Positions 6,670-8,756 of a stretch of DNA of 45,880 nt are shown one piece after another. The notes under the pieces are model-generated. The model was not told where the DNA came from, searched no databases, and saw nothing but the letters and a program-made list of their open reading frames with translations. Position numbers and translations under genes: made by a program. The DNA comes from Candidatus Aegiribacteria sp. MLS_C (GTDB lineage Bacteria > Fermentibacterota > Fermentibacteria > Fermentibacterales > JCC-6). The stretch's first letter is position 1, and the number at the start of each line of letters is the position of its first letter. The stretch is taken from contig LQBI01000010.1 in the NCBI GenBank assembly GCA_002030045.1, positions 1 to 45,880 of the forward strand. The letters run 5' to 3'.

Positions 6670-7923
6670 TTGCCCGGAGCCTTCGTCCTGACCCTCGGCT
6701 GCCCGAAGAACGAGGCGGACTCGGATTCCTTCCAGGCGTGCCTGCGTGCCGCCGGATGGGAACTGATCGACGATCCTGAGGACGCCGACCTCCTCCTGCT
6801 GAACACCTGCGCGTTCATACAGCCGGCTGTGGAGGAGTCGATGGAGGCCATCGGCGAGGCCCTGGACTGGAAATCCAGGAAGCGGTCCAGAAAGCTGGTA
6901 CTTGCCGGCTGCCTTCCCGGAAGGTTCCATGACGACGGCTCCGGCGGACTGTCGGACTTCGACCTCATCATCGGACCCGCCGATACCGGCGGCCTCCTTG
7001 ACTGGCTGGGACTTCCCCCTGAGAGTGTTCCCGGGGTCTACGGCCGCCGACACCTCAGGTACCTGAAGGTATCCGAGGGCTGCTCCAACCGGTGCGCCTA
7101 CTGCACCATACCTCTGATACGGGGCCCGAGGAGGGACAGGAGTACGGGAGAGATACTGCGCGATGCCGCCATGATGGTGCACCAGGGAGCAGGGGAGATC
7201 GGGCTGGTGGGCCAGGATACCGGCGCCTGGTCGGAAGATGGAGGAATCCACCGTCTTGTCGGCACGCTGGCGGAGGAGTACCCGGATGTATGGTTCAGGC
7301 TCTACTACCTCCACCCGGCCCACATCGTCCCGGGTCTTGCCGGGCTCATGACGGAACACGGGAACGTCATGCCCTACCTGGACGTCCCCGTACAGCACTG
7401 CTCCGACAGGATACTGAAAAGGATGGGCAGGGGTTACGGCCGCGCACTGCTGGAGGAACTCTTCACGGGCTTCGACGACTCCGTTGCGGACCTGGCGGTA
7501 AGGACCACGGTCATAGTGGGCTATCCCGGCGAGACGGAGAATGAGTTCCTCGAGCTGATGGGCTTCCTTTCCCGCCACCGGTGCATCAGGACCGTGGCCG
7601 CCTTCCCCTTCTGGCCGGAGGAGGGTACTACGGAATACTTCAGGATCCGTCCCGGGGAGCTTCCTTCCCCGGAGACGGTCCAGTCCAGGCTTTCGCAGGT
7701 AGGCGATGCGGCTGACGCGCACTACCGTGACTGGGGCGAACGGCTGGAGGACAGGGTCCTGCAGGTGATGGTGGATTCGCCGGGCACCGGCCACACGGTC
7801 TTCGATGCTCCGCTGGTTGACGGCACCTGCTTCCTCGAGTCCGACGAACCTGAGGGGACGGTCCTGGAATGCAGGATAACCGACTATGAGGGTCCGGATC
7901 TGACCGCCGAGGTGATTGCGTGA
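6670..7923 (+). CDS. rimO: ribosomal protein S12 methylthiotransferase RimO
   Basis: Radical-SAM methylthiotransferase that modifies an aspartate of ribosomal protein S12. The protein is 417 residues. The N-terminal domain carries three cluster cysteines in LGCPKNEADS (Cys11), LLNTCAF and VLAGCLPG. The radical-SAM motif is EGCSNRCAYCTIPLIRG (about 139-155). The LGCPKN start and IPLIRG end favour RimO over MiaB. A C-terminal TRAM-like segment covers about the last 65 residues. The start is TTG with GAGGGGA upstream. The last 30 codons lie inside a tandem duplication whose second copy sits just downstream without this stop codon. Confidence 0.93.
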   Translation: MPGAFVLTLGCPKNEADSDSFQACLRAAGWELIDDPEDADLLLLNTCAFIQPAVEESMEAIGEALDWKSRKRSRKLVLAGCLPGRFHDDGSGGLSDFDLIIGPADTGGLLDWLGLPPESVPGVYGRRHLRYLKVSEGCSNRCAYCTIPLIRGPRRDRSTGEILRDAAMMVHQGAGEIGLVGQDTGAWSEDGGIHRLVGTLAEEYPDVWFRLYYLHPAHIVPGLAGLMTEHGNVMPYLDVPVQHCSDRILKRMGRGYGRALLEELFTGFDDSVADLAVRTTVIVGYPGETENEFLELMGFLSRHRCIRTVAAFPFWPEEGTTEYFRIRPGELPSPETVQSRLSQVGDAADAHYRDWGERLEDRVLQVMVDSPGTGHTVFDAPLVDGTCFLESDEPEGTVLECRITDYEGPDLTAEVIA

Positions 7924-8069
7924 TGGGATTTGCGGCCCGGCCGCTCCGCTGCTGCCCGAGTACGACATACCGGAGAGGACGGTCCTGGAATGCAGGGTAA
8001 CCGACCATGAGGGTCCGGATCTGACCGCCGGGGTGCCTGCAAGATGGGATTTGCGGCCCGGCCGCTCCG
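7831..8069 (+). repeat. 118-bp imperfect tandem duplication at the rimO 3' end
   Basis: Copy A spans 7831-7948 and copy B 7952-8069, a period of 121 bp. From 7857 and 7978 onward the copies differ at only about 7 of 92 bases; the first 26 bases are more diverged. Copy A contains the last codons and stop of rimO. Copy B carries the same peptide pattern (TVLECRVTDHEGPDLTAG) in another frame, with the stop lost. Each copy ends in the palindrome GCGGCCCGGCCGC. Copy B ends 99 bases before the next gene. The 7924-8168 spacer holds nothing else I recognise. Confidence 0.9.
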
Positions 8070-8168
8070 TTCTTATCTTTGTGTCTGCGATGGCGCCTTC
8101 CTGGACGAGGACGCCGCATTACCAGGGACCCGGGGGGCAGAACCGTATTCGAACGAGAAGGACTTGAT

Positions 8169-8756
8169 ATGCATACCATTCTGATCGCTGGCATCCTCGC
8201 CGTCGTGCCCACCAACATGGAGATGGCGGAGGACGCTCTGGTGATGGCACTGGAGGAGCTTCCGGCGCAGCTGGCAGCTCTTGGGGCCTCGGAGGTGAAC
8301 GTGGAGGTCTCCGGCGAACACACCGGCAACTGGTTCATCAAGCAGACCGTGTTGTCCGTGCTTCACGAGTCGGGTATCACCGTCACCGACTGGACCGATC
8401 CCGAGGATCCGTCCATGGTCCTGAGGATCCGGCCCATGGAGCTTTCAGTGGACTACGGCGGCGTCAGCAGACCATGGATAGTGGGCAACAAGAGGGTGGA
8501 GCGCATCGCCAAGTGCGAACTGATGAGCACGCTGCTGGACGGGGACGGGGAAATACTGTTCAACCTGAGGACGAGCGGTCTTCGCCAGGACGTGGTCTCA
8601 TGGTCCGAGACCGAACTGCTGGAGGGATCGACGGAATGGGAATGGCTGTCGGGGGAACTCCCGCAGAACAGCGGCGGAGGAATACTCGAGCCCATCGTCG
8701 TCACCGGCGTGGTCGCCAGCCTGGTGTACCTCTTCTATTCCAGCAGGGCGGAGTAG
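8169..8756 (+). CDS. secreted/membrane hypothetical protein
   Basis: A protein of 195 residues that I do not recognise. It starts with a short hydrophobic signal-like stretch (MHTILIAGILAVVPT). The middle is an alternating helix/strand region including VLHESGITVTDW and LVLRIRP-like strands. It ends with a hydrophobic segment (about 172-190, ILEPIVVTGVVASLVYLFY), which would anchor the C-terminus in a membrane. AGAAGGA (8156-8162) precedes the ATG at good distance. The next gene begins six bases after its stop, so it is probably part of the following lipoprotein/bamD operon. The central layout loosely recalls CsgG/FlgO-like periplasmic proteins, but this is weak. Confidence 0.7.
   Translation: MHTILIAGILAVVPTNMEMAEDALVMALEELPAQLAALGASEVNVEVSGEHTGNWFIKQTVLSVLHESGITVTDWTDPEDPSMVLRIRPMELSVDYGGVSRPWIVGNKRVERIAKCELMSTLLDGDGEILFNLRTSGLRQDVVSWSETELLEGSTEWEWLSGELPQNSGGGILEPIVVTGVVASLVYLFYSSRAE

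Follow-up and report, generated by a model that had tools for sequence, protein, structure and literature searches.

Why does the tail of rimO stand twice, head to tail, in front of the next gene, when the second copy cannot serve as the end of the protein? The locus was examined in a window of 45,880 nt (the whole stretch of DNA that was analysed), and the features discussed below are collected in Table 1. It explains how a partial gene copy may look conserved without being protein.

Table 1 Features at the junction between rimO and the next gene, in window coordinates.
Feature	Position	Strand	Description
rimO-like gene	6670..7923	+	UPF0004 + radical SAM + TRAM_2; TTG start as listed; last 97 nt in copy A
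Copy A	7827..7948	+	final 97 nt of rimO, with the stop TGA at 7921-7923, and the 25 nt that follow
Orphan -35-like box TTGCGG, copy A	7930..7935	+	no -10 at 17-nt spacing
Copy B	7949..8069	+	rimO tail in decay, with 1 nt deleted and AGA in place of the stop TGA; last 27 nt as in copy A
-35-like box TTGCGG, copy B	8051..8056	+	TGGCGY in relatives
GCGGCCCGGCCGC "palindrome", copy B	8053..8065	+	end of -35-like box plus spacer; not conserved, other letters in relatives
-10-like box TATCTT (TATCTTTG)	8074..8079	+	not part of the duplicated unit; separated by 17 nt from the -35-like box before it; without variation in aligned genus members
Downstream gene	8169..8756	+	195 aa; conserved beside rimO in the family; AAGGA ribosome-binding site 8158-8162

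A local tandem duplication at the end of rimO

TRF placed a tandem array at 7827-8069 of the window (period 121, 2.0 copies, score 388), and a repeat search of the window gave the same start-to-start spacing of 121 nt between the two copies. In a gapped alignment, copy A (122 nt) and copy B (121 nt) were identical in 108 of 122 columns (now 88.5%) and differed by 13 substitutions and one 1-nt deletion, the latter in B. The right three quarters of this alignment, from 7856 on, held 7 mismatches in 93, which agrees with the ~92% over 92 bases given in an earlier note on this DNA, and the final 27 nt, spanning the stop region and the -35-like box, were identical. GCGGCCCGGCCGC stands at 7932-7944 in A and at 8053-8065 in B and has no other occurrence in the window at up to 1 mismatch. 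That note had recognised the tandem duplication of the rimO tail, with a start (7831) that TRF and the alignment place ~4 nt too late and a unit (118) ~3 nt too short. Since the remaining tandem arrays of the window have periods of 15-21 nt only, and none comparable to 7827-8069 was found elsewhere in it by TRF, the duplication is real and far beyond chance.

The duplication is confined to one place. A 256-bp query matched the 2.98-Mb genome solely at its own locus, with no further copies elsewhere in the genome of the kind that a dispersed repeat family would have, and a 23-nt end motif, allowed up to 3 mismatches, was found in the genome only at copies A and B. No second rimO tail was seen in any relative whose junction between rimO and the next gene was read; these relatives have a single rimO tail, and wherever the contig extends to the next gene, that gene comes directly after it. 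The rimO stop lies 245 nt (124 + 121) before the next start codon in the window and 123 nt before it in the nearest relative (G006), and the DNA both upstream and downstream of the duplication is collinear with relatives. The relatives that can be named are metagenome-assembled genomes of Candidatus Fermentibacteria/Aegiribacteria, and the closest RimO among those examined was 64% identical. Given head-to-tail adjacency of the copies, a single occurrence in the 2.98-Mb genome and none at the orthologous sites of the relatives examined, we conclude that a genome of Candidatus Fermentibacteria/Aegiribacteria type has here undergone a tandem duplication that is local and lineage-specific, and that no dispersed repeat is involved; our confidence in the duplication and in its local nature is high. 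The search of the unit against the genome and relatives, which the earlier note had proposed as a check, thus came out for a local duplication and not for a repeat family, and the idea of a dispersed repeat invading rimO found no support.

Copy A remains coding and copy B has decayed

The best NCBIfam family for the rimO product was TIGR01125 (RimO), whose cut-off of 357 was not reached by the score of 283 bits; the product exceeded the cut-off of the broader MiaB/RimO model TIGR00089, and Pfam TRAM_2 was placed at residues 364-416. It is copy A that serves as the end of rimO. The changes in A and B were polarised using relatives: copy A had its own changes at 7832, 7847 and 7915, all still coding and milder than those of B. 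In copy B, sites otherwise invariant in relatives were hit by a deletion (7835) and by changes from Gly to Arg (7855), Glu to Gly (7910) and Leu/Ile to Pro (7916), a further disabling change fell on the conserved site 7846, and the change at 7921 turned the TGA of A into AGA (8042-8044 in B). The lost stop had been noticed before, and together with the frameshift near the left end it bears out the view that copy B is unreadable as RimO. As polarised changes were found in each, both copies have evolved since the duplication, A in its role as protein and B free of constraint at the protein level. Copy B derives from this very rimO, since both copies carry the lineage-specific residues TVLEC and EGPDLTA. 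The differences between A and B are not concentrated at synonymous sites, and third codon positions account for few of them, so copy A gained few synonymous changes, although the numbers are too small to press.

An 83-aa ORF with a TTG start (7916-8167, plus strand) runs through copy B and ends just before the start codon at 8169. It was considered as a translation of copy B and rejected; the 72 aa that were searched (7949-8164) matched no family. An automatic annotator might nevertheless call it a gene.

A promoter-like element spans the right edge of the duplication

On its right the unit ends inside a conserved promoter-like element of the next gene, a point that the earlier note had missed. 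A block such as TGATGGGTGTGGCGTATCATCGCCTCCGGTTTTATCTTTG comes directly after the rimO stop in the 14 nearest relatives (L003-L016), and after it, where the contig reaches, the next gene. The conserved boxes of this block are TGGCGY and TATCTT, whose spacing is constant (one exception by 1 nt) while their distance from the stop and the letters between them vary. A related genus (L017-L021, L023-L029) has TGGCR-N18-TATAAT at the junction. With the window counted in, 27 of 30 genomes carry T(T/G)G-N20-TAT(A/C)(A/T)T at the junction, 26 of them among the 29 relatives, whereas shuffled sequences gave an expectation of 0.18; these genomes are related, and the 27 occurrences are not 27 independent events. 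Across 1.25 Mb of the genome, the window included, TTG-N20-TAnnnT formed a spacing peak upstream of genes, with 46 forward matches compared with 9-20 (about 12) at other gaps and with 4.3 scaled from coding sequence. In every member of the related genus that was read, the first box sits inside the coding end of rimO, and the protein end and the promoter-like element share letters.

Within the window the element is intact only across the boundary between copy B and its right flank, which together keep every invariant column of the family-wide element, and TTG-N20-TATCTTTG occurs exactly once in the genome, at this boundary. Because the right edge of the duplication (8069/8070) falls within the spacer between the -35-like and -10-like boxes, copy A is left with an orphan -35-like box and copy B re-supplies a -35 to the unduplicated -10. 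The 17-nt spacer lies within the 16-18 nt of sigma-70-type promoters, and the same geometry is the one enriched upstream of genes in this genome. TTGCGG matches TTGACA at 3 of 6 positions, TATCTT matches TATAAT at 4 of 6, and a generic sigma-70 scan found no promoter here, for which reasons we call the element promoter-like rather than a proven sigma-70 member. There is nonetheless good reason to regard the block after rimO as the putative promoter of the next gene. With the right edge of the unit inside that element, copy B would act at the level of DNA, one of the two roles (RNA or DNA) that had been suggested for it. The 195-aa product of the next gene had no match in Pfam, NCBIfam or PHROGs and is uncharacterised.

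Two other readings of the junction block were rejected. A Bacteroidota-type -33/-7 promoter (TTTG...TAnnTTTG) would fit TATCTTTG, but the window contains a single TAnnTTTG where 3.7 would be expected, and few upstream sites carry it; given this rarity and the genomic peak at TTG-N20-TAnnnT, the ordinary reading with a 17-nt spacer is preferred. The post-stop block of the relatives was also considered as a conserved peptide (W-R...S-G-F-I-F); its -10 hexamer is invariant at synonymous positions, the stop codons before it differ and there is no common start codon.

A possible history of the junction

These observations suggest an ancestral state in which the next gene had its promoter within 7-13 nt after the rimO stop. 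In this lineage a short tandem duplication would then have doubled the final ~97 nt of rimO with the stop codon, together with the -35 part of the promoter, the right breakpoint falling in the spacer between -35 and -10. Copy A, adjoining the rest of rimO, would have kept coding for the end of the TRAM domain, while copy B, adjoining the -10 box, would have kept only the -35 half of the promoter and lost its coding meaning, and one compact junction would have become two separated single-purpose copies. That the duplication ran through such a gene-end/promoter junction, with A keeping the gene end and B the promoter half, is in our judgement probable. In the sequence, the coding role is gone from B and the -10 is absent from A. 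Whether this amounts to sub-functionalisation at ~120 nt, with purifying selection acting separately on copy A (as protein) and on the last ~27 nt of copy B (as promoter), we put forward tentatively, at slightly less than an even chance; for continued selection on copy B as such our confidence is moderate. The identical 27-nt right end is as expected if B keeps promoter DNA, yet copy A has the same letters without needing them, and the identity is weakly unusual (P ~0.02, or ~0.08 without the divergent left end), which by itself makes it weak evidence for selection.

The present edges could be explained by slippage at a short repeat. GCTCCG is found at 7807-7812 and again at the unit end (7943-7948), and copy B continues GCTCCG-CTG like the upstream site, after which a gap of 14 nt lies between CTG repeats. 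Template slippage between the two GCTCCG sites may thus have produced a 136-nt duplication, from which 14 nt between the CTG repeats were later deleted in B.

Alternative explanations

Next to this history, a neutral tandem duplication fares best: the breakpoint would bear an incidental relation to the promoter, copy B would merely be decaying, and the next gene would be expressed chiefly by transcription running on from rimO, or else from another site. Tandem duplications are no rarity in this genome (20 TRF array rows with a period of at least 40 nt, some overlapping, in 1.25 Mb), and the identity of the promoter part of B exceeds expectation only weakly, as a neutral course would have it. 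The upkeep of the two-box element at the junction across the family, and of all its invariant columns in B and the right flank, argues the other way, and we regard neutrality as unlikely.

An intrinsic terminator or RNA structure after rimO, in which case the duplication would have doubled a hairpin, is considerably less probable still. The window block can fold (GCGGC-CCG-GCCGC) with a T-rich stretch after it, and single-sequence folds of relatives reach ~-5 to -14 kcal/mol. The consensus fold of the junction block in relatives, however, came to -0.18 kcal/mol with no pair changed on both sides; Rfam gave no match to a known RNA family at the duplication, the scan gave no terminator-like site, and the junction showed no conserved GC-rich stem with compensatory changes followed by a T run. 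Two boxes at constant spacing with a free spacer likewise speak against a hairpin. The RNA half of the role proposed for copy B is not borne out, and the conserved functional palindrome proposed along with it dissolves into -35/spacer DNA, the relatives having no palindrome there.

The two copies could also be versions of a single rimO end from two strains, which metagenome assembly placed in tandem. The related genomes that can be named are metagenome-assembled, so that of the window probably is too, and the 27-nt exact repeat at the copy ends would suit such a join; a frameshifted B with no stop is no functional strain variant, though, and neither the spread of the A/B differences beyond synonymous sites nor the collinear flanks favour an artefact, which we consider highly improbable. 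A dispersed mobile or repeat element inserted at rimO, brought to mind by the 13-nt palindrome at the unit end, deserves practically no weight and within this genome is already refuted by its one locus and by a unit made of rimO-specific coding sequence.

Relation to known systems

As a mutation the event is of an ordinary kind. It resembles the short tandem duplications that arise by replication slippage or template switching (head-to-tail, two copies, ~120 nt, a single locus and possibly a 6-nt end repeat), and differs from typical ones in that its edges lie inside a gene end and inside a promoter and that the copies, instead of being lost, now stand at 88.5% identity. The fate of the copies recalls duplication-degeneration-complementation (subfunctionalisation), each keeping one ancestral role and losing the other; that model concerns whole genes, whereas here the unit is a 121-nt junction of a gene 3' end and half a promoter, and its retention by selection is something we infer. 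The element itself is like a housekeeping (sigma-70 type) promoter situated at, or within, the end of the gene upstream, with two boxes and a 17-nt spacer and, in the related genus, a -35 inside rimO coding sequence; unlike such a promoter its -35 is TGGCR/TTGCGG, not TTGACA, and its activity is a prediction. A search of the open-licence literature yielded nothing relevant as a comparable case. The position of the duplication is mildly instructive, as a gene end was parted from a putative promoter which, in related genomes, adjoins it or shares its letters. It illustrates cleanly how a short duplication can pull apart neighbouring or overlapping functions in compact bacterial genomes. The locus also draws attention to TTG-N20-TAnnnT as an apparent promoter geometry in Fermentibacteria-type genomes and to the promoter-like element that the family shares where rimO ends.

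Some minor observations were made along the way. G004, of the same genus (98% complete, 1.9 Mb), had no close RimO, its best match being at paralogue level only, and no match to the 8169-8756 gene; the rimO/next-gene pair seems to have been lost together. In G017 (C144:32191-33422), rimO appears as two overlapping matches in different frames (residues 1-182 and 173-416), which indicates a frameshift or a sequencing error. Several arrays unrelated to this one, in which units of 44-71 nt recur 2.5-4 times with 96-98% match, lie elsewhere in the genome (L040:5587-5723, L045:10638-10820, L048:13302-13443, L139:1534-1714 and L145:4144-4283), and some of them contain inverted repeats, e.g. ACCCGGGGCTGCGGCCCCGGGT.
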